53,966 nt of DNA. Source: a virus. Positions 4,009 through 53,966 of this stretch are shown here, in pieces; the first letter of the stretch is position 1, and each line of letters starts with the position of its first letter. The DNA is taken from positions 1-53,966 of IMG/VR virus record IMGVR_UViG_3300042885_002233. One strand, given 5' to 3'. The notes beneath the pieces were generated by a model that was not told where the DNA came from, ran no database searches, and saw nothing but the letters and a program-made list of their open reading frames with translations. The position numbers and the translations under genes were made by a program.

Positions 4009-5196
4009 ATGCAGCAGATCATCAAAGCGGGCGCCGGTGCGTCCACGGCATTTGTCATCCAGCCAGGAAAACAGTTGACGCTATCTGCGTCCGGCCTCGC
4101 CGGTGACGACGTTGTGGTGATCGAGGTAGTGACGCTCTCCCGCGCACCCGAGTTCACCGGCGATTCGTGCTGCGCAGTTACCGCGCCGGACATCCAGGTT
4201 ATCGCGTTCACTCCGTTGCTGTGCGCCCCAGGCGTTGCCCGTGAGTTGACCGCCGAATCCCCTTACGTGGTTCTGGACGGCCCGCAGTTGGTCACTTTGC
4301 GTGTCCGGGTCATAGCCGATCCAGGCGCTTTGGTCGAAGTGTTCTTGCACGAAACCGACAGCGACGGTTGCGCTGAAGCCTGGCGCTGCCCGGCAGTTGC
4401 AGCACCGGTTGAGGTGTCTTCACTGCCTTGCCTTGAGATTTGTGAACTGCCTGTTGTCGAACTCAAAAAGCAAGTCGTTGACACCCAGGTGGTGTGTGGT
4501 GAACTTTGGTACATTTGGAGCGATGGCACCAAGACCACCGAAACTTTGCCCGTGTGCCCCGTGCCCGTGACGTACTGCCCAAGTATGCGCTTGTCCTGCG
4601 ACGGCCAACCCGGCTACGGTTTCCACTTGATGGACCCCAAAGACCCAGCGGCTACGGTTGAAATGGCCACATGCCCTGGTGATGAAACGACGGATTCGAT
4701 ATGGATCTACCCGGCGGCCGGCCCAGGCCACACAGTAAAGGTAATGGATTGCGACGGCAATCCTATTGGCTACGCCGCCAACCGTTCCGACTGCGCCCCT
4801 GACTGCGGATGCCCCGAAACTGTGATCAATGTGAACAACACCAACAACGTCGCTGCGCCGACCGTGAACGTGGCCGCGCCTGAAGTGACCGTGACGCCCG
4901 TCAACAACTTCACGCCAACCACCAACGTGGCCGCACCTGCTGTGACCAACAACTTCACGCCGACCACCAACGTGGCCGCGCCTGCTGTGACCAACAACTT
5001 CACGCCGACCACCAACGTGGCCGCGCCTGCTGTGACCAACAACTTCACGCCGACCACCAACGTGGCCGCACCCGAAGTCAACATCACGCAAGCTGCCCCC
5101 AACCTGGTGGCACAGGTTATCGCGGACGACGGTACGATCACAAGCACGTTGTCAGACGGTAGCACCGTGGTGTCCAACCCCCTGCCAAGTTGCTGA
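4009..5196 (+). CDS. Repeat-containing virion fibre protein, paralogue of gene 3622
   Basis: The 395-residue product has three parts. Residues 1-125 are a paralogue of the preceding gene, including GDSCC. Residues 125-275 are a Cys-rich beta domain (CPSMRLSCDG, CDGNPIGY, CAPDCGCPE). Residues 275-360 are a low-complexity fibre of four near-identical 14-15 residue units (NNFTPTTNVAAPA), flanked by related VNVAAPEV units; the DNA repeat is almost exact. The end reads like a small cap domain (DGTITSTLSDGSTVVSNPL). The design suggests a shaft carrying a domain that attaches to the virion; function is inferred. Confidence 0.6.
   Translation: MQQIIKAGAGASTAFVIQPGKQLTLSASGLAGDDVVVIEVVTLSRAPEFTGDSCCAVTAPDIQVIAFTPLLCAPGVARELTAESPYVVLDGPQLVTLRVRVIADPGALVEVFLHETDSDGCAEAWRCPAVAAPVEVSSLPCLEICELPVVELKKQVVDTQVVCGELWYIWSDGTKTTETLPVCPVPVTYCPSMRLSCDGQPGYGFHLMDPKDPAATVEMATCPGDETTDSIWIYPAAGPGHTVKVMDCDGNPIGYAANRSDCAPDCGCPETVINVNNTNNVAAPTVNVAAPEVTVTPVNNFTPTTNVAAPAVTNNFTPTTNVAAPAVTNNFTPTTNVAAPAVTNNFTPTTNVAAPEVNITQAAPNLVAQVIADDGTITSTLSDGSTVVSNPLPSC
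4900..5076 (+). repeat. 45-base in-frame tandem repeat
   Basis: One 42-base unit (4900-4941) and three 45-base units (4942-4986, 4987-5031, 5032-5076) encode the NNFTPTTNVAAPA motif. The units differ at only a few positions, so the array is young or kept uniform by recombination, and copy number may vary between isolates. Confidence 0.9.
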
Positions 5197-5218
5197 AAAA
5201 CAACACGTGTGGTATATT
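5190..5218 (+). promoter_or_regulatory. sigma70-type promoter, + strand, before capsid genes
   Basis: TTGCTG and TATATT are separated by 17 bases, with TGG before the -10 (extended -10 context). The -35 overlaps the last codons of the upstream gene. It lies 30 bases ahead of the small gene at 5248 and would feed the scaffold and major capsid genes. Confidence 0.6.
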
Positions 5219-5247
5219 TGCAACAACTAACCGAAAGGTGAATCATC

Positions 5248-5424
5248 ATGAAATCAATGTCCCCTAAACCCAGCTACGGTAGCAAGACTGTGACTCACAG
5301 CCGACCTACCACGTTTGGTTCCACCGCTTCGGCTCGCATGCCCAATGTGCCCAACGTGCCCAAGATGTCGATGGGCAAACAAGGCTGCATGACCGGCAAC
5401 TGCCCCGGCAGCAAGCGCAAGTAA
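5248..5424 (+). CDS. 58-residue basic protein
   Basis: The ATG at 5248 follows CCGAAAGGTG. The product is 58 residues, basic, rich in Ser, Pro, Met and Lys, with two cysteines near the end (GCMTGNCPGSKRK). It lies between a promoter and the scaffold block, two bases ahead of the next gene. Small basic proteins in this position are often minor head proteins, but no family is recognised. Codon use matches its neighbours, which supports it as real. Confidence 0.6.
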   Translation: MKSMSPKPSYGSKTVTHSRPTTFGSTASARMPNVPNVPKMSMGKQGCMTGNCPGSKRK

Positions 5425-5426
5425 TC

Positions 5427-5681
5427 ATGACCCCTCAAGCAGCTGAAGCCCTGCTTCGGGCAGAACTCGCCTCCGACTCCGCAGTTGGCAAGGCGCTTGT
5501 TCTGTTCCTGCAAGATGCCGAAGTCGCAAACTATCGGCAGACATCTCGTGTGTCCGACCCCTACGCAATGGCCCGCACCGTGGGCCGCGGCGAAGGTATC
5601 CACTCCATCCTCACCCGTATCACGCCAGTCAAAGATCTTGCCGATCCCCGCCAAGTTCCAATGACTGCCGAAGGAAACTAA
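5427..5681 (+). CDS. Small helical protein upstream of scaffold
   Basis: An 84-residue, mostly helical protein (PQAAEALLRAELASDSAVGKALVLFLQD) without cysteine or membrane segments. It starts two bases after the preceding stop and ends three bases before the scaffold start, so it is tightly embedded in the head operon. A head-assembly or scaffold partner role is inferred from position only. Confidence 0.6.
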   Translation: MTPQAAEALLRAELASDSAVGKALVLFLQDAEVANYRQTSRVSDPYAMARTVGRGEGIHSILTRITPVKDLADPRQVPMTAEGN

Positions 5682-5684
5682 ACC

Positions 5685-6665
5685 ATGGCAAACGTACCTA
5701 CCACTGAAGAAGGTTTGGCCGCGTGGCGCGCACAGCGCCTGGGCAAACCCGTCAATTTGAAACACGACTTGGCCGCTGAAGGCGTGCCGAGCAACGGCGG
5801 AGGCGGCCCCGATTCGGAGCGCCCAGAACCCCGCCACCCCCTGGAAAAGTTCAACCCCATGGAGTTGGACACAGGCGGCAACCAAAACGAAAACGAAGGC
5901 TCCGGCTACGGCGCCGAAGACGATAACCTGCAGCAGCAATTGGCTGCCGCCAACGGTCGCCTCGGCCCCGCCCAGCGCCAGCTCGAAGAGATGCGTGCCG
6001 CGATGCAGGCGATGCAGCAACAAAACGCCGACATGGCCGCCCGTCTGGCCGAGCGCGAAGCGCAAGAAAAAGCCAGCCGCTTCCAGCGTGCCGCCCAAGA
6101 GTTCAATCCGCTGGAAGGCTTGAGCAAGGACGAGCTGGATATGCTCGACCCCGCCGCCCTCAAAATGATCGAGCACGTCGGCCGCCAAGCCTACAGCAAA
6201 GCCCACGGCTCAATCCGCGAGCATGAAGAGTTGATCGAGAAAACGCTGTCTCAGCGTGACGCCCGTGAGCGCGACAACTTCATCTACGGCACCGCCGAAT
6301 CCCTGGGCCTGAACAAGCTGGGCAACGACAACAAGTTCACCAAGTTTCTGAATGAAGACGATTCGGCCGCACTGCTGCTGAACAGCTTCACTCAGAGCAA
6401 AGACATTGCAACCGCCCGTATGCTGGAACCCCGCGTGCGTTCCATGCTCAAGCGCTTCGAGAAAACGACCAACTCCACCCGTACCCCCGACCCGCAGGAC
6501 CGAGCATCTGCGCACCTGGCCCGAAAGCCCGATGCGCAGTCCGCTGGGTCTCAGCGCGGTGGCCATGTTTCTGCCGATGAGGTTCGCCGAGTCACAGAGC
6601 AAGCTCGTCGTCTGGCGCGGGCCGGCAAGCACAAGGAATCGCGAGAACTCCTTGCGTCAATCTAA
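5685..6665 (+). CDS. Capsid scaffold protein
   Basis: The 326-residue product sits directly before the major capsid gene. It has an acidic, disordered N-terminus (Gly/Asn/Glu-rich to about residue 80), a long Gln/Ala/Glu/Arg coiled coil (about 82-135), a helical middle with FNPLEGLSKDELDMLDP, and a basic helical C-terminus (about 285-326, EQARRLARAGKHKESRELL). Acidic, coiled-coil proteins with a basic capsid-binding tail just upstream of the capsid gene are typical scaffolds of T7- and P22-like phages. It has no cysteine, unlike the shell proteins next to it. Confidence 0.75.
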   Translation: MANVPTTEEGLAAWRAQRLGKPVNLKHDLAAEGVPSNGGGGPDSERPEPRHPLEKFNPMELDTGGNQNENEGSGYGAEDDNLQQQLAAANGRLGPAQRQLEEMRAAMQAMQQQNADMAARLAEREAQEKASRFQRAAQEFNPLEGLSKDELDMLDPAALKMIEHVGRQAYSKAHGSIREHEELIEKTLSQRDARERDNFIYGTAESLGLNKLGNDNKFTKFLNEDDSAALLLNSFTQSKDIATARMLEPRVRSMLKRFEKTTNSTRTPDPQDRASAHLARKPDAQSAGSQRGGHVSADEVRRVTEQARRLARAGKHKESRELLASI

Positions 6666-6690
6666 ACTACTCAACTCCACGAGGTAACAA

Positions 6691-7686
6691 ATGAGTAACA
6701 ACGTCAATAGCGCCGGGTACGGTGGTGGCATCAAAGGCTCCATCTACGCACCGGATCGTATCTCTACGAAAATCCTGCAAGCGTACCAACAGTGCTCCTT
6801 GCTGCCCAACATCGCCAAGTCGAACTTCATGTCGAACGAAGAGCTGATGTGCGGCGGTAAGGTGATCTACGGTATCGAGCAGACCCTGAACCTGTTCGGC
6901 ACCGACCGTCAGAACAACGAGCACCCCGATGTGTTCGATGGCCCTGGCATGGACACCAACAGCATGACGATCTGCCAAGGCCGCAAGTTTGAGTGGAAAC
7001 TCTCGAACTACGACCGCCGCATCATGTGCGACAACTTCGACCTGTGGGAAGAGTCTGTCAAGCGTCGTCTGGACAACGGCATCCGTCAACTGATCGACGC
7101 ATACTCGATCCCCAAGATCATGGCCTCGGCTTCTCCTGACAACGTGGGCAACCGCGCTGGCAAGATCAGCCACTCGGTCGACCTGGGTTGGCAAGACGCC
7201 ACCGCCTTGAATGCCAACAGCATCGCCGGCATGGAAGAGCTGTTCTACAGCTTGCGCCAAGTTGCCCAAGAAGCTGGCATGATGGGTTGCGCAGGCAACA
7301 TGGACGCAGCTGGCCCTGGCTATGCTGGCGATGTGCCTGTCATCATCTTGCCTATCCAGCTGGAACGCTGGGCCTTGAAGATGATGAGCGAGTACGGCAA
7401 AGACGGTTGCTGCACCGAAAAGAACGCTTTCGTCACCGGTTATATCGGCAAGATCTTGGGCTTTGAAGTGTTCACTTCTAGCCAACTGTTCTCTGCAAAC
7501 TACGGTGCCGCCGGCAACATTGCTCCAATCCTGATGCTCGATCCTTCGCAAGTGCTTCATGCTTTTGAGACGCTCGACGTGAAGTGGTATGAAGGTAAAT
7601 TCGAGTGGAGCCTGGTCGGCGAGTTTGTTTTTGATACTATGGTAGTAAGACCAGAAGCCGTGGCCGTGGCCTTCAGCAAGGTCTAA
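6691..7686 (+). CDS. Major capsid protein (HK97 fold)
   Basis: The 331-residue protein follows GAGGTAACAA. Length, position after the scaffold and the sequence pattern fit a podoviral major capsid protein: an N-arm (GGGIKGSIYAPDRISTKI), a spine-helix region (EESVKRRLDNGIRQLIDAYSIPKIM), an A-domain region with VPVIILPIQLERWALK, and a C-terminal EGKFEWSLVGEFVFDTMVVRPEA that returns to the shell. It forms the icosahedral head. It contains seven cysteines, including a vicinal pair (DGCCTEK), which is high for a phage capsid protein. A UUCG-capped hairpin follows the stop. Confidence 0.85.
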   Translation: MSNNVNSAGYGGGIKGSIYAPDRISTKILQAYQQCSLLPNIAKSNFMSNEELMCGGKVIYGIEQTLNLFGTDRQNNEHPDVFDGPGMDTNSMTICQGRKFEWKLSNYDRRIMCDNFDLWEESVKRRLDNGIRQLIDAYSIPKIMASASPDNVGNRAGKISHSVDLGWQDATALNANSIAGMEELFYSLRQVAQEAGMMGCAGNMDAAGPGYAGDVPVIILPIQLERWALKMMSEYGKDGCCTEKNAFVTGYIGKILGFEVFTSSQLFSANYGAAGNIAPILMLDPSQVLHAFETLDVKWYEGKFEWSLVGEFVFDTMVVRPEAVAVAFSKV

Positions 7687-19449: not shown

Positions 19450-22400
19450 ATGTCCGATTTCCTCGACCCAAACAAGATCCTTCGTGAACTCCAGCAAAAG
19501 GGTTCGCAGTTTGACCCCGTGGGCGTGACCCTCGGGGACATCCCCTTGTTCAATCCCGCACCGGCGGGCCGCGGTCAAGCCGCGTTCAATCCCTACACCT
19601 CCCCCATCACCGACAAAGAACTCGGTGCCCAAGGTGGCGTGGACATGAGCACGTTCAAAACTGTTAGCGCCATGCAGAGCCAGGCGGAGCGGGAAGCGGA
19701 TCGCCGCGAGCGGGAAGCGGAGCGCAAAGCCCGTGCCGCGGAACGCGATGCGGCGAAAGATCTCAAGACATCCAAGGGCGGCCTGGACGACATCATCCGC
19801 AAAGACCTGGGCTTGGACCCTGCCAGCTCGGTTACCGCCACTACGACACTTGCTGGCGTTGGCGCGGCACCCACGATGCGAATCCGTGCAGAGTTGGATT
19901 GGCCAAGCGTTACCAACTCGCCCGAGTGGAAAGCCCTGCCGGTGGAAGAGCAGGCCAAGCAACGCCCGTTGTGGGTGCAAGCCCGCGTCGGCGAAGCGGT
20001 GGCTCGCGTGGAAGCGGCCGGCTACAAAGTCAAAGACAAAGAGATCGCAGAGCTGCGCAAAAAGTACGACGACCTGACCAAGACCTCGTTGTCGAAAAGA
20101 CCCGAAAGCTCGTGGACCGACACCGACTATTTCGACCGGGCGGTCAAGAGTGTCAAGGACGTGTATCAGGGTGCCCGTTTGGCGTACGGCGATACGGCGA
20201 CACGCGAAGACGCTTTGAAGCAACTCAAAGCCAACGATGTCGAGTGGCAAGCCAACATGAACGCCGTCACCGCCGACAATTTAAAGAAGGCGGCGATGTG
20301 GCGCAACGACATGCTCAACGCCACTGAAAAGACCTCGGGCAAACGCGAGTTGACCGTGGGGCAGGAAGCAGAGATCGCGGCCAAGGTGTTCAACCTTGAT
20401 AAAGTTGGGGCCATCTTGGGTAACCTGCCCACCACCTTGCTGTCTTTGGGGGTGTCAGCCGCAGGTGGATTGGCTGCTGGTGCTGTAACCGGTGGCGCTG
20501 GTGCAGCAGCGGGCGCATCGGCCGCTGGCGCTGCCGTCAACGTACCCCTCACGGTTGCTGACGTTTCGGGCGGCCTGGCCGATACGATCGGCAATATGTC
20601 GGAGCAAGATCTGGCCAAGTCGCCACGTTGGCAAGCGCTCTTGGCTGCCAACAGCGGTAACGTGAACGCAGCCAAGACAGCTTTCATTGGCGAATTGGTG
20701 GACGAAGCCAAGCCATTGGCCTCCGCAATCGGCGGTGCATCTGGTGCGTTGGAAGGCGTCATTGGTGCTGGTAAATTGCTGGGCGTGGGCAAGGCCGCAG
20801 CCGGAAACACCGCTGCAAAAATTACGGAACAGGTGCTGTCCAAAGTGGGGCTGTCTGGCGCAAGCAAAACAGCTGCGCTCAAAACCTTTGCCGCCAACAT
20901 TGGTAAACCTACAGCAGGGTTGATCTCCACCGCCACCGCAAAGGGTATCGGCGGGGAATTGGTACAAGAGTTTGGTGAAGAGGGTGCGGGTCAGGTTGCG
21001 CAAAACCTGGCCATGCGCGCAAAAGATTTGGAGACCGGTATCTTTACCGGTGCAACCGAAGCCGGTGTGAGTGGCGCTCTGACTGGCGCCGGTACTGCAG
21101 CCGGTGCTGCCGTCGGCAAATCGGCATACGGTTCGCTGCTTGGCCCGAAGCGCGATTCCAATGGCGATTTTCTGCTGGTTGAAAAGAACGGCCAGTTGAC
21201 ACGCACAAGCAACGGTAAACTCTCGGCCGCCTCCAATTTGGCAATTGATCAAAACTCCGGCTTGATGCGACTGGTGGATGCCGAGACAGGTAAAGACCCA
21301 GAAGCGAATGCGTTAACAGCGTATCGCAACAACGCCAACGTGTTTAGCAGGGTGGCTAGCGCACAAGGTCTTGACGTAGAAAAAGCGGGTCTGGTTGGCT
21401 CGGCCCTGGCCGCGTCAATGTTTGGCGACCAGGTATCGGCGGTTGCCACCCCAACGATCAACCTGCCGAGCGGCGTGCCAATTCAGTTTAGCGTTAACGG
21501 CAACGGCACAGTAACGCCCGTCATGCCCACAAACGCAACACCGCAGCTGTTGGCCGAGGCACAGAGTGTCGCCGATGCGGCAAACGCCGCAGCTGCCCCT
21601 GTGTTAGAACAAGTCAATGCTTTCTGGGGCCGCACAACCGGCGTTGCTCCTGCGCCTGGTGCATTAACAGCCCGAGGTGTTGTTTCTACGCAACAAACCC
21701 AAACAACCGGAGGCGCAAATGCCATTCAAGTCGGAAGCACAACGCAAGTTCCTGTGGGCAACGGACCCCAAGCTGGCCAAACGGTGGGCCAAGGAAACAC
21801 CCAAGGGCAAGCTCCCGCCCAAGGTCAAGCCCAAACGCAAGTAACGCCTGCGCCTGCGTTTGATACGCAACTGGAAGAGGCGATTCGGCTGACCGCGTAT
21901 GGCGATGAGCGGTCCTTGTTGACCAGCATCTTGGGTCAGCTTCGCAATCCGGGCACGCCTGCCAATGTTCGTCAGTCCCTGGAACAACAGGCACGGGATG
22001 TCATTCAAACAGCACCTCCGTTGGAGCAGGGTCAGCCGCTGCCCAGCGGCGTCTTGGGTGCTCGCGCATCCCTTGGTGAGAACTTCGGCGCAAACCGTCG
22101 TCCCGCCGTGCCGCTTGATGCGGCAACCGCCGCGGCCCGCGCTGCAATGGGAGACCGATCGGTGCCCGCGTTCACGCCACCACCTTTGCCAACGGTTACC
22201 CCGCCTACCGCCGTGCCTGCTGCGCCTGTTGTTTCTACGCAACAAACAGCCGCAACAACACCGCCTGCACCAACATTTACAGCCGGCCAGCAAGTCCAAT
22301 ATCAGGGGCAACCCGCAACAATTGAATCTGTCAACGAGCCTTTAGGGACAGTGACGTTGCGCTTGCCCAACAACTCATCGGTCGGTGTTAACCCAAGCGA

Positions 22401-25400
22401 GGTGACACCTGTTGTTTCTGCGCAACAGTCTGCTGCCGCTGCGCCAACTACGACCCTGAGCCAGCAAGAGCGAGAAGCCCTTGCCGCGGCAGATGGTTCG
22501 GTGCGTCGCTATCGAGACAACGATCGGTTGTCCTACTACGAAAAGTTGCGCGACATCACGAACACCATCAAGCGCACGATTACAACCAACCCGGTGCTCA
22601 ACGATCTGTATGTCAACAACCCGGGCGCGCTGCCAGAAAATCTACAGTGGGCTCGACTCAAGCTGGGCCTTGAGGTCGGCACCAACGTGCATACCGACAC
22701 AATTGGGGAAGCGGTTCGTGCAGCCACCGATCCGCTGACAGCCGTTGCTGATTCCAGCCGCGCCGGCACGGCCAACGCCAATGCTGCAGCAGCAGTGCTC
22801 GACATGTACGCCCAATCGGGTGTCCCAATGCCGACACTGGTATACAGCGATACGACTCCGCCTCGCGGAACTCGGGGCTCGTACTCTTACGGCGGCAATG
22901 CCCACACGGTGACGTTCTTCCGCACCACGACGTTTACGACCATTCCGCACGAATACCTGCACGGCCTGACCGCCAAGGGTTATGCGGCCATGCTCACAGG
23001 GTCACCAGAACAGCGGGATACCGCCGCCTTGTTGCGCCATCTGGCAACCCTGATGCCACAAGAAGCGTACATGACAGCGTTTGGTAATGCACAAAACGCG
23101 CCCTACGAAGCACTGGCTGAGTTGTTCCGGCCGGAGGCTGTTGCCTTCATGTCGCAGAACACCTACGACTTGTCGACCTTCCCACCGGAAGCGCGCCGCG
23201 CAGCCGAGCGCCTGCTGGCCGCGCCCCAGGGCAGGATCTTTGATTTGTTTATGTCGACAATCATCAGCATCCTGCGCACCATCGTGCCCACGCAGCGCCT
23301 GGCCGCCGTTGAGAACAGCCTCGCTGATCTGATGTCCCGCGTGGCCGCCGAAGCTGTGCAAGCAACGGTGCAACGCACCGGCGGTGTATCGCAAGACGGG
23401 GCGTTTGCTGCACCTGCTGCGCCTGCCGCATCGACACAAGCTGCACCGGTGGCGCCACCCGTGTTGCCCGTTTTGCCAGACGCGGTTCGACTTGAAATCT
23501 ACAACAACGCAGTTGCTGCGGGCATACCCGCCAACTGGTTACGAGATACGGCGCGTGGGGTTTATGTCACAGCGCCTATGAACAACCGGGGTGTCGCCGT
23601 TGTGCCGTCGCAGGGCCAACGGTTGGCCCAAGCGTTGCGATACGCAACCGGTTCAGGTTTGCCGTTTAGAGAAGTTACCCCTCCCAGCGGCGGCGGAATG
23701 TTTGTTCTGTTGACTGCACCAGCTGCACCTGCTGCACCAGCTGCACCAGCTGCACCTGCTGCACCGGTGGCGCCAACGGTAGCTCAGTTGGCCATCGGCA
23801 ACCTGAACCAAGCTCAGTCCATGGGGCAAGCAACCGGTTTGCGTGTCGGCGATACGATTACCTTCACGGACCCCATCGGGTATGCAAGCCCCCAAGTGCC
23901 GTATGTTATTGAGGATGTCGGTAATCGCCGCATAGACATACGCAACCCGATCACCGGTGGTGGGACTAGCATTGATGCGTCCGATCTTATCGGCACCGTC
24001 GCGCGCAACCCGGCGTTTAGTTGGACCATCGGGGCGCCAGCACCTGCTGCATCTGCTGCACCAACACAATCAAACCTATCCCCGGAAGCAGAGGCAATCT
24101 TAACCCGATTGGCGCAGACTGCGGTTACAAACGGTGTAACGAGTGACGTTTTGACAGTAATGGTGTCTAACGCTAGTGGCTTGCTCCCCGGGGTTGACAA
24201 CCCGGTGGCCGAGATCAACGCCGTGGCTTTTGCCGAGCAAGAGTTTCAGCGCCTTCGCGCCGCCCAGCAACCAACAGCCACTACCCCCGGCACACCAGTA
24301 GGCCCAGATGAAATGCAGCGCCGCCACGCAGCGGGCGAATCGCTGGCAAGCATATTGGGTGTACGAGCTGTGGGAGATATCTTGACTCAAAGCAGCGGCG
24401 CCACATACAGAGTGGCTGCGATAGTTGGCGATTCGCTTGAGCTGGTAAACATTAGATCCGACGGCACCGAAGGGCAAGCCCGAGTGTTCAGCACCCCCGA
24501 TGTTTTTAACGCACTGGGCTCAACACAAACCTTAACCGCGGGTACGGCTCCCGTTACGCCTGCTGCACCTGCTGCGCCAGCGTCAACGCCAGCACCAGCA
24601 CCAACGAACCAACCGTTGCGCAGCCTCGACACCCGGTTGCCCGGCGACTTGATGCGCACCAGTGAAACGTACGAACAACACCGGGTGAACTTTAGCCGCG
24701 ACTTGGATCGCGCAGCGTGGGTTGCGCGTGGCAATCGAGGTGTCACTGCAAGTGGCAATCCGCGTCGCGCAAGCGCCCGTGACGCACGCATGGTTGCCTT
24801 TGTGCGTTCAATCACCGGTTGGTCAGAATTCCAAGTGCGTCGCCACGGTGACCAAGTTAACAGCGCTGTCGCTGCAGCGGCCCGTCAAGCAGGTAATCCT
24901 GACAGTGACATCCGTCTGGCTATTCAGCCCATCAACGCTCCGTTTGGCACCGCCCCCGCAACGCCGCAACCCGGCACCTTGCTTGGGCGCACGCCTGCGC
25001 CAACGTCGCAACCCGGTTTGCCCGCAACGTACCAAGGTAGGGATAGCAACTCTGACAACGTGCGCGGCGTGGCTACGGGGATCAGCAACCCTGAGTTTTT
25101 GTCCCGCGCAACGCCGCTCGCGCAACTTGTGGTAAGCAACGGCGGTGCACGAAGCGACCGCTATCTGCAAGGCGCGGGTCTGCCAACCACCGTGCTGCCA
25201 GGGCTCGGCACTGATCGGCAAGTCGCCGATACCGCTGTGTCGGACTACCTGACCAACGGCTTGGCTCTGAACATGTCGCCTCAAGTACTGCTTGGCTCCC
25301 CTGCCGTTGGGGATACCATACAGATCAATGCCGCAATAGCTCCAAATGGACCCCGTGCAGATATCACCTACACCGTGCGCGAAGTTTTACCAAACGGCAG

Positions 25401-28400
25401 CTTGCGCGTCGAATCAACACAACTCGCTGGCACTTTCCGCGATCTACGCACAGAAGAGCTGCGCGATATGGCAGCTCGCGGCGCCCGCTGGACAATTAAC
25501 GGTACTGCGTTTGCTGTGCCTCGCAGCGCAGGCGCGGCGCCAACTGCCGTTAGCTCGGACGAACGAAAAACTGCGTTCGACACTTTCGTAAAAGATTACA
25601 TCTCTGCTGCGAACACCAAGCTGCAACAAGCGCTCGCGGGCACAACTACGCTTGAGGAAAAGCGTGCCGTGGGCAAGAACTTGTTTGGCATAAACCCGCC
25701 TCGCAGCAACGGGTATCTCGCGGAAATGAAAGTAACCACTGATCCCCGAGGTGGACTTACCGTTAGCTTTGCTTACAAAGACATGAACGGCGCTGTAGTG
25801 CACACCGGCGCTGCATCTCGCGATTTTCCTACCGGGCAAGTTCACTTCGGGGCCACTGGCTTGACTGAAGGGAGTGGCGAAGGCACACCTTTCTACGACG
25901 CTGTGTATGGTGCAGCAGTTCAAAGCGGTTTGCCTATTCAGGTTACCGGGTTGTACAACGCCAACGTGCGCCGCATGCCCATCAACAGGCTTCGCGCCAT
26001 CTTGCGGTGGGGCACCTACTTCGGTGACCTTAACCGCGCTCAAAAAGTATTGTCCCTTGAAACCGGGCAGATCAAAGATTGGAATACAAGCCAGCGCCTT
26101 TACGCCGGTACGTCTTCCGTAGACGGCCGTGCCCAACTTGACGGTTTGTTTGAGCACGTCGAGGCTTCGCTGACCTCAAGCCTGAACCCCAACGGCGGTC
26201 GCCCTATCGGCTACGACTTTGCTACCAACCAAGTGGTAATCGGGCCCAACCGCACACCCGTTCCGAACTTGTCAGACTGGTTGCGCACACAGTCGGCCAA
26301 CGTAACAGGTCAGTCGCAAGCCTTTGTGAACCGTCCCACTGAGGACAGCGTGCGCTTGGTCGGAATTTTGCGCGAGCTGTCTCGTGCCCCGAATCAAGCA
26401 GCTGCGCAACAGATGATTGATCAACTTACCAATCGTGCAACCGATCGGTTGTTTGACATGCCCTCCGGGGGTACAACCGCTGCACCGATCGACGGACTGT
26501 TTGGCGAACAAGCAGACGAAGCGCCGGTCGGGCCAGAGCCTACCAACGGCACGCCCCCTGGCGGCGGCGGCGGCGGCAAGAAGCTGCTGGCCAAGGGTAC
26601 GGTTGGGCCGCAAGCACAAGGCGACGACATCCTTTTCGATCGCGCACCCGGCGACTTCGCCATCGGCCAAGCCGCGATTCCCGCAACGGATGTTCGCGGT
26701 ATCACCCAAGCCTTGACATCACCCGGCCTGTCCCCCAGGGCCCGCGTGACAAAGGCCAAGCCGTTCTTGCGCAACATCTCGGACTTCGTGGTCGAGCAGT
26801 TCGCCGATTCCCTGATCCCCACGGTGCGCTGGATACAGTCACTGCCTATCGGCGAGCAAGTTAAAGTGAGCCTGCTTGGCTCGATGTACGCGGCTCCCGA
26901 TATCCGTGACACGATCCTTGAGCGTGCCGAGAAAGAGTTCGGCGGCGAGCAGTTGAACCTGTCTTTGAACACCATGTTCAACAAGCTGCGCCAGACCCGC
27001 AAAGATGTGACCCTCGAAGACGTGATCCAAGACGCCGGATACTGGGCCACTGCCCGGTATTCCAAGCTGAAAAACGAGCGCATGCTGGCCGCCGATGAGC
27101 AAGCCGTCATCGAAGCACAGACCCAGGTGGCCGCAGCCCAAGCGCTCAACGCTCCGCAAGCCGAGATCGCCGCGCTGCAAGCCGAAGTCAACCGGTTGGA
27201 AGGTATCTACGAGGACCGCAAGTTTGCCTTGGCCCAGCCCGCCAACACCAACGTGCACGTGGGTCGCCCCGTGCCCTCCGGTGAGCGCCCCCAGATCGGC
27301 CTGGCCGGCGGCTTTAACAACGCCAAAGCCGATGAGGTGATCGCTGCGGCCGAGCGCCAGTTCGGTGCCCAAGCCCTGCAAGAGATGGCCAAGCACCTGT
27401 ACAAGCTGAACGCTTTCCGCATGGCCACCGACATCGTAAGCGGGCGCACCGACCCGGCCCAGGCCGCGTTGTTCTCGCCCGAGTTGGAAGCCTTGCTGCC
27501 CGAGATGCAGCGTTTGGCGCAGATCAGCGCCGACCCCAACGGCAACCAACGTGCCCTGGATCAAGCACGCCGCGACTTTGTGAATAAGCTGGCCAACACC
27601 TCCACCTACGTGCCCACCACCGGCGACCCCGAGCAGGGCTTTGAGATGGACGTGCTGGGCAGCGGGTTCAAGACCCCCAACACCGCGCGCGACAAGCGCC
27701 TGCTGGGCCGCTCTACCTCGCTGGCCAACGACGGCATCACCGCATCGCTTGGCGGCATGCAGCGATCCGCCTCGGCTGCGGGCTGGAACAAGTTCACCGC
27801 CCAGATCGAGAGCGTCTACGACTCGATGACCGATGCGCAGCGCGACGACGCTGGCATTGCCCGCGTGCCGATTACCGCGCTCGACCGTTTGAGCGACAAC
27901 ATGATCATCCGCAACCAACCGGACGGATCGGCCGTTGGCTACACCATCAAGGACGGCAAGGTGCTGCAGGCGCTGCGCAAAGAGAACGTCGAGGATCGCT
28001 CTTCGGTGATGCGGGTCATGGAAATTCCCAACCAGATCTTCGCCCGTTTGGCCACCCGCTACAACCTGCCGTTCGGCCCGATCAACGCGCTGCGCGACGT
28101 GTGGGAGCGCTCCGAGAACATGCGTGCCCGCGAATACTTCACGCCCGGGGGCAAGAAGCTGGACTCCGACAAGCTGGCCCGCCGCATGATCGAGATCGCC
28201 CGCCAGCCCGGCGTGCTGAAAGACCTGACCTCGTACTACTGGGCCCAGGCCCAGGGCAAACCGCAACCCAATTCGGTTTACTCCAACTACATGCGCGAGT
28301 TCGAGGAACTGGGCGGAGGCGGCAGCAAGTACGGCGCTTCGATTTCCCGGGACCGCAAGAGCCTGGTGGCCGACGTGGCTGCGGCCAAGGGCGGCGTGAT

Positions 28401-29655
28401 CAAGCCAACCTACGAGTTCATCAACAAGTACGTCAACTTCTGGAACGATTCGTTCGATGGCGTGGCACCGCTGGCCGCCTACGTGGCGATGCGCCAAGGC
28501 GGCATGTCCAAAGAAGCGGCGGCCCAGGGTGCCAAGGATCTGATGAACTTCCGCAAGTCGGGCGCGTTTATGCCGCTGGTGCGAGCAATCTACGCCTTTG
28601 CCCAGCCTACGGTGACAGGTGCTGTCAACCTGGCCAACACACTCAAGACCAGGACCGGTCAAAAGCGTTTCATGGGTTACGCCGTGGCGATGTTTGCGAT
28701 CCAGTCTATCTTGGCTGCAGCCGGTGGCGAAGATGAAGAGACGGGCAAGAACCTGTTCGATTCGCTGGACGACTACGCCCGTGAGCGCAGCTTACCTTTG
28801 CCCATCCCAGGTACCAACGAGTTCTTGAAGATGCCTATTGGCTTCGGCTTGCCGCTGATGGCCCACCTTGCGGCCCTGCGCTCACGCGACCTGGCCGGTG
28901 GCGAGGCCACCCCGGGCGAGACTATCAGCTCGGTGTTGACGGACATCGCCCAAACGATAACGCCGTTGCAGGCATCCAAGATCGCGTTAAGCGATTCGCC
29001 GATTCGCGCCGCTGTGCAAACCTTGACGCCAACCTTTGCGAAACCAATCGCCAACATAGCGATCAACCGAGGTGGCCTTGGCCAGCAGATCGTGCGCGAA
29101 GAGTTCTTTGCCAAGGGCGACGAGGCACGCTTCCGAGCCGAGCAAGGTGCACCGCTGACCGCCGAGTTCTACAAGGACACGGCCAAGTTTGTGCAGTCCA
29201 CATTCGGCCTGGACTTTGCGCCAGAAGAGATCAAAGAACTTAGCTCCCTGTTCAGCTTGGGTCTGTTCCGTAACCTGCAGCAAGCGGTCATCGACAACCC
29301 GAACAAAGAACTGCAGGGTCGCCCAACCGCCACACCCATCATCGGTAGCTTCGTGGTCTCGGCAGACAATGCGCTGGTGCGGGATTCGCGCAAGTTCGAG
29401 GCGACCGCGCAGGAGCTGGTCAAGCGCCGCAACAGTAACCCCGAGACGGAGTTCTCGCCGCAGGAAGAGCAGACACTGGAGCAATACGCACAGTGGCTGG
29501 CCCTGGAAACAGAGTTCCGCAAACGCGGCGCTGCGCTGACACGGGCCGGGGTGGACAAGGGTGTCGATCCGGCCCGCCTGGAACTGCGTCAAGAACGAAC
29601 CGCTGCGCAAGCGGATCTGCTAAGACAGTTCAACGCGACTCGGCAAACACCTTGA
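19450..29655 (+). CDS. Giant 3401-residue ejection/polyvalent protein
   Basis: One uninterrupted frame of 10.2 kb. The parts, in order, are: an Arg/Glu coiled coil (77-105); Gly/Ala-rich hydrophobic segments (about 320-375, 415-450, 500-565) like those of ejection proteins; SH3-like barrels near 944-989, 1463-1516, 1637-1690 and 1948-2018, joined by Ala/Pro linkers; a metallopeptidase-like HEYLH motif at 1167-1171 with a downstream Glu near 1220-1224; a possible GNAT-like segment near 2142-2188; a coiled coil (2544-2585); and an LPD38-like C-terminal region around 2997-3092 (LMNFRKSGAFMPLVRAIYAF). It has no cysteine. It resembles T7 gp16 in position and the large polyvalent proteins of phages in build. 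There is no clear Shine-Dalgarno sequence. The last 26 bases overlap the opposing deacetylase gene. Confidence 0.8.
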   Translation: MSDFLDPNKILRELQQKGSQFDPVGVTLGDIPLFNPAPAGRGQAAFNPYTSPITDKELGAQGGVDMSTFKTVSAMQSQAEREADRREREAERKARAAERDAAKDLKTSKGGLDDIIRKDLGLDPASSVTATTTLAGVGAAPTMRIRAELDWPSVTNSPEWKALPVEEQAKQRPLWVQARVGEAVARVEAAGYKVKDKEIAELRKKYDDLTKTSLSKRPESSWTDTDYFDRAVKSVKDVYQGARLAYGDTATREDALKQLKANDVEWQANMNAVTADNLKKAAMWRNDMLNATEKTSGKRELTVGQEAEIAAKVFNLDKVGAILGNLPTTLLSLGVSAAGGLAAGAVTGGAGAAAGASAAGAAVNVPLTVADVSGGLADTIGNMSEQDLAKSPRWQALLAANSGNVNAAKTAFIGELVDEAKPLASAIGGASGALEGVIGAGKLLGVGKAAAGNTAAKITEQVLSKVGLSGASKTAALKTFAANIGKPTAGLISTATAKGIGGELVQEFGEEGAGQVAQNLAMRAKDLETGIFTGATEAGVSGALTGAGTAAGAAVGKSAYGSLLGPKRDSNGDFLLVEKNGQLTRTSNGKLSAASNLAIDQNSGLMRLVDAETGKDPEANALTAYRNNANVFSRVASAQGLDVEKAGLVGSALAASMFGDQVSAVATPTINLPSGVPIQFSVNGNGTVTPVMPTNATPQLLAEAQSVADAANAAAAPVLEQVNAFWGRTTGVAPAPGALTARGVVSTQQTQTTGGANAIQVGSTTQVPVGNGPQAGQTVGQGNTQGQAPAQGQAQTQVTPAPAFDTQLEEAIRLTAYGDERSLLTSILGQLRNPGTPANVRQSLEQQARDVIQTAPPLEQGQPLPSGVLGARASLGENFGANRRPAVPLDAATAAARAAMGDRSVPAFTPPPLPTVTPPTAVPAAPVVSTQQTAATTPPAPTFTAGQQVQYQGQPATIESVNEPLGTVTLRLPNNSSVGVNPSEVTPVVSAQQSAAAAPTTTLSQQEREALAAADGSVRRYRDNDRLSYYEKLRDITNTIKRTITTNPVLNDLYVNNPGALPENLQWARLKLGLEVGTNVHTDTIGEAVRAATDPLTAVADSSRAGTANANAAAAVLDMYAQSGVPMPTLVYSDTTPPRGTRGSYSYGGNAHTVTFFRTTTFTTIPHEYLHGLTAKGYAAMLTGSPEQRDTAALLRHLATLMPQEAYMTAFGNAQNAPYEALAELFRPEAVAFMSQNTYDLSTFPPEARRAAERLLAAPQGRIFDLFMSTIISILRTIVPTQRLAAVENSLADLMSRVAAEAVQATVQRTGGVSQDGAFAAPAAPAASTQAAPVAPPVLPVLPDAVRLEIYNNAVAAGIPANWLRDTARGVYVTAPMNNRGVAVVPSQGQRLAQALRYATGSGLPFREVTPPSGGGMFVLLTAPAAPAAPAAPAAPAAPVAPTVAQLAIGNLNQAQSMGQATGLRVGDTITFTDPIGYASPQVPYVIEDVGNRRIDIRNPITGGGTSIDASDLIGTVARNPAFSWTIGAPAPAASAAPTQSNLSPEAEAILTRLAQTAVTNGVTSDVLTVMVSNASGLLPGVDNPVAEINAVAFAEQEFQRLRAAQQPTATTPGTPVGPDEMQRRHAAGESLASILGVRAVGDILTQSSGATYRVAAIVGDSLELVNIRSDGTEGQARVFSTPDVFNALGSTQTLTAGTAPVTPAAPAAPASTPAPAPTNQPLRSLDTRLPGDLMRTSETYEQHRVNFSRDLDRAAWVARGNRGVTASGNPRRASARDARMVAFVRSITGWSEFQVRRHGDQVNSAVAAAARQAGNPDSDIRLAIQPINAPFGTAPATPQPGTLLGRTPAPTSQPGLPATYQGRDSNSDNVRGVATGISNPEFLSRATPLAQLVVSNGGARSDRYLQGAGLPTTVLPGLGTDRQVADTAVSDYLTNGLALNMSPQVLLGSPAVGDTIQINAAIAPNGPRADITYTVREVLPNGSLRVESTQLAGTFRDLRTEELRDMAARGARWTINGTAFAVPRSAGAAPTAVSSDERKTAFDTFVKDYISAANTKLQQALAGTTTLEEKRAVGKNLFGINPPRSNGYLAEMKVTTDPRGGLTVSFAYKDMNGAVVHTGAASRDFPTGQVHFGATGLTEGSGEGTPFYDAVYGAAVQSGLPIQVTGLYNANVRRMPINRLRAILRWGTYFGDLNRAQKVLSLETGQIKDWNTSQRLYAGTSSVDGRAQLDGLFEHVEASLTSSLNPNGGRPIGYDFATNQVVIGPNRTPVPNLSDWLRTQSANVTGQSQAFVNRPTEDSVRLVGILRELSRAPNQAAAQQMIDQLTNRATDRLFDMPSGGTTAAPIDGLFGEQADEAPVGPEPTNGTPPGGGGGGKKLLAKGTVGPQAQGDDILFDRAPGDFAIGQAAIPATDVRGITQALTSPGLSPRARVTKAKPFLRNISDFVVEQFADSLIPTVRWIQSLPIGEQVKVSLLGSMYAAPDIRDTILERAEKEFGGEQLNLSLNTMFNKLRQTRKDVTLEDVIQDAGYWATARYSKLKNERMLAADEQAVIEAQTQVAAAQALNAPQAEIAALQAEVNRLEGIYEDRKFALAQPANTNVHVGRPVPSGERPQIGLAGGFNNAKADEVIAAAERQFGAQALQEMAKHLYKLNAFRMATDIVSGRTDPAQAALFSPELEALLPEMQRLAQISADPNGNQRALDQARRDFVNKLANTSTYVPTTGDPEQGFEMDVLGSGFKTPNTARDKRLLGRSTSLANDGITASLGGMQRSASAAGWNKFTAQIESVYDSMTDAQRDDAGIARVPITALDRLSDNMIIRNQPDGSAVGYTIKDGKVLQALRKENVEDRSSVMRVMEIPNQIFARLATRYNLPFGPINALRDVWERSENMRAREYFTPGGKKLDSDKLARRMIEIARQPGVLKDLTSYYWAQAQGKPQPNSVYSNYMREFEELGGGGSKYGASISRDRKSLVADVAAAKGGVIKPTYEFINKYVNFWNDSFDGVAPLAAYVAMRQGGMSKEAAAQGAKDLMNFRKSGAFMPLVRAIYAFAQPTVTGAVNLANTLKTRTGQKRFMGYAVAMFAIQSILAAAGGEDEETGKNLFDSLDDYARERSLPLPIPGTNEFLKMPIGFGLPLMAHLAALRSRDLAGGEATPGETISSVLTDIAQTITPLQASKIALSDSPIRAAVQTLTPTFAKPIANIAINRGGLGQQIVREEFFAKGDEARFRAEQGAPLTAEFYKDTAKFVQSTFGLDFAPEEIKELSSLFSLGLFRNLQQAVIDNPNKELQGRPTATPIIGSFVVSADNALVRDSRKFEATAQELVKRRNSNPETEFSPQEEQTLEQYAQWLALETEFRKRGAALTRAGVDKGVDPARLELRQERTAAQADLLRQFNATRQTP
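21679..22430 (+). repeat. Three dispersed linker repeats inside the giant gene
   Basis: A 20-base sequence beginning GTTGTTTCTACGCAACA occurs at 21679 and 22228, with a close variant at 22411. Each encodes VVSTQQT or VVSAQQS in a Pro/Ala-rich linker at a domain border. They look like recombination-prone hinges. Confidence 0.75.
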
Positions 29656-30484
29656 CGCATTCCTCCATCGTAGCGCGGTGCAACGCAAGCACCGGCTCGA
29701 TGGAGCCTTCGCTGTCCCTGGAATAACCTCCGGCCAGGTTCCAGGCAACGGGCACGCCCTGGCTGTGGCATTTGCCGAACACGATCGCATCGCGCATCCG
29801 CATCTGCTGCGTGGTGTAAACGCCACCCAGCGGATCGTCGATGTGGGCGTCAGCACCGGCTTGATACAACACGATGTCAACGTCGGGCAGGTGCTTGTCC
29901 AGCGTCGATGCCAAGTTATCAAGCGCGTCTTCGCCGCTGAGACTGCGCGCGCCTAAAGAATGCAACGTGATCCAATCCGTGCTGCCAAGCGTTGTGATGA
30001 TGTCTTCGCACCCGTTTGAGAAATGATAGTCCTCATCAACGATAAGGGCACGCTTGATCAGGCCGCGCTCTCGCAACTTGTACAGCGTAACCATCAGCCC
30101 GTTGAAGGTGCAAAAACCCCCGCCGAAATCGTAACCGGCGTGGTGAAAGCCGGACACCGGGGCACACGCGACTTGCTTGTTCATCAATGCAAGATGCGCC
30201 GCTTCGTACATTGCCCCCACGGTGTAGCGCAAGGACTCGGCAACGGCCAGATCCTTATTGCCAAAGCCGTTGAACTCTTCTCCGGTGAAGATGGCTTGCA
30301 CATACTTCGGATCGTGCGCCCGCTCAAGGCTTTGCAAATCAATCGCCTCCGGCTGAATCAGCGTGACGGCGAAATCCCGCACCAGCCAATCGTCGACAAC
30401 CTGCCGGGGTTTGTTGGAGCTAGGGGAATACGATGCGGTTTGCACCGACATCTCGGGGCGATACAAAACTGGAATGTTTTTCAT
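29630..30484 (-). CDS. Histone-deacetylase-superfamily deacetylase
   Basis: The 284-residue protein shows all key parts of the arginase/deacetylase fold used by HDAC, AcuC and acetylpolyamine amidohydrolases. They are the tandem His pair (GFHHAG, His114-115), GFCTFN, the zinc site Asp152 and His154 in IVDEDYHFSNG, ITLHS, the third zinc ligand Asp212 in AGADAHIDDPLGG, and the catalytic Tyr254 in AGGYS. It should therefore remove acetyl groups from lysine side chains, polyamines or a similar substrate; which one cannot be read from sequence. It has its own TTGACA promoter and AAAGGA ribosome-binding site. The 3' end overlaps the giant gene tail-to-tail by 26 bases. Confidence 0.88.
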   Translation of the reverse strand: MKNIPVLYRPEMSVQTASYSPSSNKPRQVVDDWLVRDFAVTLIQPEAIDLQSLERAHDPKYVQAIFTGEEFNGFGNKDLAVAESLRYTVGAMYEAAHLALMNKQVACAPVSGFHHAGYDFGGGFCTFNGLMVTLYKLRERGLIKRALIVDEDYHFSNGCEDIITTLGSTDWITLHSLGARSLSGEDALDNLASTLDKHLPDVDIVLYQAGADAHIDDPLGGVYTTQQMRMRDAIVFGKCHSQGVPVAWNLAGGYSRDSEGSIEPVLALHRATMEECVKVFAESR

Positions 30485-30507
30485 GGTGGTGGTCCTTTAA
30501 AGAACGC

Positions 30508-30537
30508 AGTCTACCATAAAACTTTATGCGGTGTCAA
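30508..30537 (-). promoter_or_regulatory. Early promoter of the deacetylase gene
   Basis: Leftward TTGACA and TAGACT are 18 bases apart. The spacer has GCATAAA and TATGG, the arms of the dyad shared by the early promoter family. It lies 24 bases before the start codon. Confidence 0.7.
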
Positions 30538-53316: not shown

Positions 53317-53344
53317 ACTGTACCATGAATTGTGGTTCGGTCAA
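53317..53344 (-). promoter_or_regulatory. First leftward promoter
   Basis: Leftward TTGACC and TACAGT are 16 bases apart, with TGG before the -10. It lacks the spacer element of the other early promoters and lies at the edge of the repeat region, so it may be regulated differently. Confidence 0.6.
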
Positions 53345-53427
53345 TAGCTTTTTTAAGACTGTTACACTTTTTTACGTTAAATTTTACGGGGATTCGGGGA
53401 TTCGGCGATTCGTTCTCTACAGGAAAG

Positions 53428-53558
53428 CATTCTCTATTCTCTACAATTCTCTCATTTTTCTATACTATTGCGCGCGGGAGGTTTTTCTCTATAGATTTTT
53501 CTATACTAGGAAAAATTAGGGTATAGGAAAACGGGGTGTTCGTAGAGAATAGAGAATG
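53428..53558. repeat. 17-bp perfect inverted repeat with long spacer
   Basis: CATTCTCTATTCTCTAC (53428-53444) is the exact reverse complement of 53542-53558. The 97-base spacer contains two copies of TTTTTCTATACTA. Confidence 0.85.
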
Positions 53559-53645
53559 GTTTTGGAAAAGTCTGAGAATGCCCCACGGGCGAATCGGCGT
53601 AAATTTAACTAAAACCACGGTTAAAACGCTAATAGCACAACTTAA

Positions 53646-53702
53646 AGCGTATCGGCGTATCCCTAAACGCTAAACAGCGTATCGGCGTATCCCTAAACGC
53701 TA
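53646..53702. repeat. 27-base direct repeat, two copies
   Basis: Copies at 53646-53672 and 53676-53702 begin AGCGTATCGGCGTATCCC and have a period of 30 bases. A diverged third copy (AGCGTATCAGCGCA) starts near 53717. Confidence 0.85.
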
Positions 53703-53777
53703 TTTCGCCAACTTAAAGCGTATCAGCGCACCGCTTAAATTTAACTTAGCGCATCGGCGAATCTTGTAACACACTAC

Positions 53778-53819
53778 AAATAAAGCGTATCACGATACAA
53801 ATAAAACGTATCACGATAC
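53778..53819. repeat. 21-base direct repeat, two copies
   Basis: Copies at 53778-53798 and 53799-53819 differ at one base and share CGTATCACGATAC, which is itself partly palindromic (GTATC/GATAC). The GTATC core also occurs in the 27-base repeats. Confidence 0.85.
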
Positions 53820-53837
53820 AAATAGTTTGTCCTAGGG

Positions 53838-53915
53838 TTCGCCGTCTCTCTGATTCGCCGTCTCTCTGATTCGCCGTCTCTCTGATTCGCCGTCTCTTGA
53901 TTCGCCGTCTCTCTG
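53838..53915. repeat. 16-base direct repeat, five copies
   Basis: TTCGCCGTCTCTCTGA is repeated at 53838, 53854, 53870, 53886 (15 bases) and 53901. The array ends just upstream of the TATAAT at 53926. Confidence 0.9.
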
Positions 53916-53966
53916 TTCTTGATTCTATAATTGAAACCGATTCTCCGATTCGGCCCTGAAAGGGAA

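Follow-up and report, generated by a model that had tools for sequence, protein, structure and literature searches.

A phage gene predicted to encode a histone deacetylase-superfamily enzyme with an intact zinc site

The window analysed here spans an entire virus record (53,966 bases), and its minus strand carries a gene whose 284-residue product resembles histone deacetylases (HDACs). The gene raises the questions of whether its product has kept the features of a working enzyme of the superfamily and which acylated substrate it acts on. Bacterial protein acylation is widespread, and phage enzymes that might alter it have been little studied. The kind of enzyme is already known, and the protein from the window is a new member of it; related genes are scattered through many phages and bacteria.

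Gene, fold and catalytic residues

The positions of the gene and of its motifs, the latter located by alignment, are as follows:
29630–30484, minus strand, gene for the 284-residue protein of the HDAC superfamily (start codon ATG 30484–30482, stop codon 29632–29630)
30140–30154, minus strand, SGFHH, residues 111–115, the foot-pocket loop with H114 and H115
30014–30037, minus strand, DEDYHFSNG, residues 150–157 and the adjoining G158, with D150, D152 and H154
29822–29860, minus strand, AGADAHIDDPLGG, residues 209–221, with D212 and with PLG (218–220) in place of the PEG of HDAC10
29723–29734, minus strand, AGGY, residues 251–254, with Y254

The plus strand is interrupted by in-frame stops across the same stretch. 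The protein is matched by the Pfam family PF00850 (Hist_deacetyl) with 94.5 bits (E = 1e-26; curated cut-off 27.9). A phmmer search of the PDB with the single sequence has HdaH of V. cholerae as the top match (E = 6e-21), and a profile of 104 sequences finds HdaH (E = 3e-42) before HDAC6, HDAC2 and HDAC8. The AlphaFold2 model calculated with the relatives has a pLDDT of 96 and a pTM of 0.93. The five best solved structures in Foldseek are four chains of HdaH (TM 0.83–0.85 by query length), followed by HDAC11 of Leptospira. The model and the TM of 0.84 to HdaH predict an arginase/deacetylase fold. Arginase and the other families of the arginase fold are ruled out by the profile, the fold and the catalytic residues. 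A search of predicted viral structures gave good matches to HDAC and acetylpolyamine amidohydrolase (APAH) proteins of giant viruses and to one phage fragment, and neither NCBIfam nor PADLOC contains an informative match for the enzyme.

The initial annotation had assigned the protein to the HDAC superfamily from its letters. The open reading frame was recovered at exactly the same positions, on the minus strand, which the annotation had not specified, and Pfam, the PDB and AlphaFold agree on the assignment far beyond what chance would give, with PF00850 and the HdaH/HDAC11 branch closest in profile searches and a confident deacetylase fold in structure prediction. The zinc-site motifs it had listed were all found (FHH 113–115, DEDYH 150–154, AGADAHIDDPLGG 209–221 and AGGY 251–254).

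Alignment of the window protein with 164 relatives (84 viral and 80 bacterial) identifies H114 and H115 as the catalytic pair, D152, H154 and D212 as zinc ligands, Y254 as the catalytic tyrosine and D150 as a buried acid. These roles are those of the HDAC8-type mechanism, which we take to apply to the window protein. H114, H115, D150, D152, H154 and D212 are invariant in all 164 relatives, and Y254 is kept in each of the 162 relatives that cover the position, 159 of which have AGGY. The gene and these residues are read directly from the DNA and the alignment; from the residues and the predicted fold we infer that the protein binds zinc and is active. The phage gene is thus predicted to specify an enzyme of the HDAC superfamily whose zinc site is intact.

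The window protein departs from its relatives at only two of the 42 columns conserved to at least 95%, S156 (G156S) and C159 (T159C), both near zinc ligands. The corresponding segment reads H-[YHW]-G-[DN]-G-T in most relatives. Position 156 is glycine in 164 of 164 and serine in the window alone, and C159 occurs in none of the 164. A scan of the viral collection at the DNA level for D-x-D-x-H-F-S-N-G returned fourteen stretches, none of which belongs to an HDAC relative. HFSNG is therefore a peculiarity of the window protein, and the earlier proposal that it marks a separate subfamily has to be abandoned.

A subfamily shared by phages and bacteria

In a quick tree with few references, the relatives form one group, apart from HdaH and 9rje, with an SH-aLRT of 97. 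They make up a single subfamily beside HdaH. Gp204 of phage Magritte, a distant phage protein, falls outside the group on a very long branch. The window sequence has a long branch of its own, of 1.15 changes per column, and its best identity, 49%, is to a protein from a Burkholderiales metagenome-assembled genome. The best explanation of the sequence comparisons is that the subfamily adjoins HDAC11 and the bacterial HdaH enzymes of Graf cluster 5b; members of cluster 5 (HdaH in 5b, HDAC11 in 5f) are the best solved matches in sequence, profile and fold searches.

Viral and bacterial sequences are intermixed in the group. Well-supported branches alone force at least four to five changes of label, and the gene has therefore moved between phages and bacteria more than once. 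Three of the bacterial loci have a DnaB cluster in common with phage loci; if some bacterial loci lie in prophages or on phage contigs that were binned wrongly, the count of changes would be lower. A Limnohabitans contig (L166) contains two copies of the enzyme, at 2–517 and 4950–5699, about 4.4 kb apart. In L002, which comes from LR756511, the record of an uncultured huge phage, the copy at 5947–6857 is broken into two overlapping frames by a frameshift or an assembly error.

HdaH of V. cholerae (PDB 9gkv and 9gky; cluster 5b of Graf et al. 2024, PMC11532494) resembles the window protein in the lack of RPP, the aromatic residue before the HH pair and the small residue before GGY. However, the two proteins are only about 24% identical, the window protein is about 30 residues shorter and belongs to a separate clade, and the loops of its subfamily have signatures of their own, SPSAxKP and NGFGN. 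The class IV HDACs include the second best fold match, HDAC11 of Leptospira (PDB 9gz5; PMC13325672). The window protein has the phenylalanine gatekeeper of clade B and, by hand alignment, no clade A Arg-Glu pair, but it lacks HPFD and a matched Glu94 and may fall outside both published clades. A phage HDAC-like gene has been annotated before, as gp202 of the isolated Rhodococcus phage E3, a "putative histone deacetylase" (HM114277). It belongs to the same subfamily and is 33% identical to the window protein, but it comes from a different phage with different neighbouring genes and forms a deep branch of the subfamily. The open-access literature searched contains no description of the phage and bacterial subfamily, which is not proof of absence. 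The survey of bacterial deacylases does not mention phages (PMC11532494), and the survey of viral polyamine enzymes reports amidohydrolases of the superfamily in giant viruses only (PMC9992855).

Pocket motifs and candidate substrates

The pocket motifs of the window protein, VSGFHH, AGGY and PLG, are seen directly in its sequence. Strict deacetylases and polyamine deacetylases are marked by RPPXHH and EGGY, whereas enzymes taking longer chains have GGGXHH-like loops and a small residue before GGY (PMC11532494). The gatekeeper motif for polyamines is PIS in bacterial polyamine deacetylases and PEG in HDAC10, where it provides polyamine specificity (PMC11532494). RPP, EGGY and a glutamate at position 219 are missing from the window protein and from all 164 relatives. 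The small residue before GGY is present (AGGY), and VSGFHH, without RPP, matches GGGXHH in part only; HdaH has SGGYHH. VSGFHH also takes the place of the GGGLHH-type loop (XGGLHH) of AcuC (cluster 2c), and PLG that of the PEG (HDAC10) or PIS (cluster 4) gatekeeper. The motifs are similar to those of longer-chain deacylases, whose foot pocket is open. With SGFHH and AGGY suggesting an open foot pocket here too, the enzyme should take chains longer than acetyl.

A phenylalanine or tyrosine at the position equivalent to F113 marks the active clade B of HDAC11, an Arg-Glu pair marks clade A, which is inactive on peptides, and in clade B the HPFD loop and a Glu94-type acid go with peptide substrates (PMC13325672). 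The foot-pocket gatekeeper of the window protein is F113, and it is a phenylalanine in 157 of the 164 relatives. None of the 164 has the Arg-Glu pair that closes the foot pocket in clade A at columns 83 and 87, equivalents that were set by hand alignment. The HPFD motif of loop L1 is absent; the window protein has SPSS there and the subfamily mostly SPSA. The acids E69 and E70 of loop L2 are candidates for the Glu94-type residue, but they are not conserved in the family, and the loop lengths differ. The missing HPFD and the missing or unmatched Glu94-type acid therefore leave room for a small-molecule substrate.

The pocket motifs, the gatekeeper phenylalanine and the absence of the Arg-Glu pair therefore make a lysine deacylase tolerant of longer chains the best reading, with a small-molecule substrate as its main rival. 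We propose, with about even confidence, that the protein is a phage accessory single-domain Zn2+-dependent amide hydrolase that cleaves an N-acyl amide, most likely at an acylated lysine of a protein. The zinc ion would be held by D152, H154 and D212, water would be activated by H114 and H115, and the carbonyl would be polarised by Y254. Cleavage of the acylated lysine may alter the acylation of host or phage proteins during infection. The missing HPFD, the lack of a matched Glu94-type acid, the partial likeness to GGGXHH, S156 and C159 speak against this explanation. HdaH, the nearest tested enzyme, has only weak de-decanoylase activity (PMC11532494).

With the same fold and chemistry, the enzyme could instead act on a small acylated host molecule, such as an N-acyl metabolite, an amide or a signal, which is possible, if somewhat unlikely. 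Non-peptide substrates are presumed for HdaH and for the clade A enzymes of HDAC11 (PMC11532494, PMC13325672), relatives in cluster 1b have turned into hydrolases of dimethoate and propanil (PMC11532494), and loop L2 of the window protein has no conserved acid to match the peptide-binding Glu94. However, clade B, which is active on peptides, likewise has the gatekeeper phenylalanine and lacks the Arg-Glu pair (PMC13325672), and the leucine at the gatekeeper position in PLG fits lysine deacylases (PMC11532494); from these we infer a preference for lysine. An acetylpolyamine amidohydrolase freeing spermidine for replication or packaging would agree with the superfamily and its zinc chemistry, and some APAHs (Graf cluster 4) are virus-borne, those of giant viruses having been proven biochemically (PMC9992855). 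Bacterial APAHs dimerise through a long L2 loop (PMC11532494), and the polyamine deacetylases of cluster 4 carry RPPGHH and EGGY (PMC11532494), two marks that the window family lacks. Glu219 is likewise missing throughout, APAH chains score 39 bits against 78 bits for HdaH in the phmmer search of the PDB, and S-adenosylmethionine decarboxylase (PF02675) was found in none of 50 viral records, i.e. the window and 49 related ones. Since the pocket motifs lack RPP, EGGY and PEG and resemble those of longer-chain deacylases, the release of polyamines that had been suggested from the sequence is disfavoured, and we regard it as very unlikely. Least probable of all is a catalytically dead relic or a binding protein. 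Although G156S and T159C alter near-invariant positions close to the zinc ligands, and the branch is long, the protein retains the seven catalytic residues and agrees with its relatives at 40 of the 42 highly conserved columns, its reading frame is uninterrupted, and its model is confident.

Genomic setting and a possible role in infection

The HDAC-like gene closes the leftward arm of the window, which also holds genes for a DNA polymerase, an Enc34-type single-strand DNA-binding protein, a DUF2800 protein, a VapE/Prim-Pol protein and an SNF2-type helicase. It lies tail to tail with a rightward 3401-codon open reading frame, and their ends overlap by 26 bases. The GC and GC3 contents of the gene are those of the phage itself, and recent insertion of foreign DNA was rejected on these grounds. 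ARAGORN found no tRNA in the window. A nucleotide search returned no close relative of the phage, and exact peptide patterns gave no match for the enzyme or the DNA polymerase and one remote match for the helicase. The 3401-codon frame (19450–29655, plus strand) matches phrog_14770 and phrog_9854, both of unknown function, with its C-terminal part only, and its size suggests a giant virion protein. The right end of the window (53340–53966) is AT-rich, contains three kinds of tandem repeat with periods of 30, 21 and 16, and is possibly an origin or control region.

A gap of 49 bases precedes the HDAC-like gene, and two candidate expression sites are located in it or next to it:
30508–30537, minus strand, promoter-like site TTGACA-18-TAGACT, its second hexamer preceded by TG, ending 23 bases before the ATG (consensus match)
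30493–30498, minus strand, ribosome-binding-like site AAAGGA, 8 bases before the ATG (read from the sequence)

The upstream site is the sole match to TTGAC N17–20 TAKAVT in the window, where 0.13 are expected, a low expectation that overstates the case, since the pattern was devised after the site had been seen. A plain regional count of promoter-like sites is not above chance (one found, 2.1 expected). The phage early promoter from which the gene had been said to be expressed is matched in part only, by the promoter-like site just upstream. An HDAC-like gene occurs in seven of 50,697 phage records and relatives of the window's DNA polymerase in 959; the deacylase gene is therefore accessory. 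Together with the putative promoter, this suggests an accessory gene that may be expressed independently.

Anti-defence genes are often patchy, mobile and accessory, and have their own promoters. The HDAC-like gene has such a distribution and its own promoter-like site, and its product could act in counter-defence by undoing a block that works through acylation, such as one imposed by the GNAT toxins of toxin-antitoxin systems. There is, however, no PADLOC match, and the neighbours are not anti-defence genes in the scans made, so that we consider this role improbable. A GNAT acetyltransferase (PF00583) is present in four of the 50 viral records and absent from the window. Returning to the longer-chain deacylase, we speculate, at low confidence, that a mobile, widespread phage subfamily serves takeover or counter-defence during infection by removing longer acyl groups from proteins of the host or the phage, or else from an acyl signal of the host. 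If true, such an enzyme would be a form of takeover or counter-defence not described in the literature found. The predicted zinc hydrolase is compact, has a single domain and a readable pocket, and occurs in many different phages, which makes the question of phage acylation testable.

None of the recurring neighbour clusters of viral and bacterial loci contains a gene of the window other than the enzyme, and the bacterial copies have no neighbours in common, their surrounding genes being unrelated to each other; the neighbourhoods thus offer no shared gene as a clue to the substrate. Adenylosuccinate-synthetase-type genes are present in 14 of the 50 viral records. The window has none, and modified-base synthesis was therefore rejected as a requirement for the enzyme. 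A variant with TQGFHH and DPYGG is encoded in phage loci L049–L079 (e.g. L057, L060 and L067–L076), near matches to PurZ (phrog_1211), dATP triphosphohydrolase (phrog_7076), dATP/dGTP pyrophosphohydrolase and family A DNA polymerase, a gene set known from phages whose DNA contains 2-aminoadenine. In a second group, of sheath-bearing phages (L019, L021, L029, L030 and L038), the record that encodes the deacylase also contains a strong match to PurA-type adenylosuccinate synthetase (E down to 4e-81), in some a few kilobases away. Nine bacterial loci (L091, L092, L094, L097–L099, L119, L120 and L143) share a gene that by eye resembles a WYL-type transcription regulator; its median distance to the deacylase gene is about 1.3 kb. 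The deacylase gene of 26 viral loci is immediately followed, and often overlapped, by a gene that matches nothing in Pfam or PHROG (e.g. L079, 731–1987).
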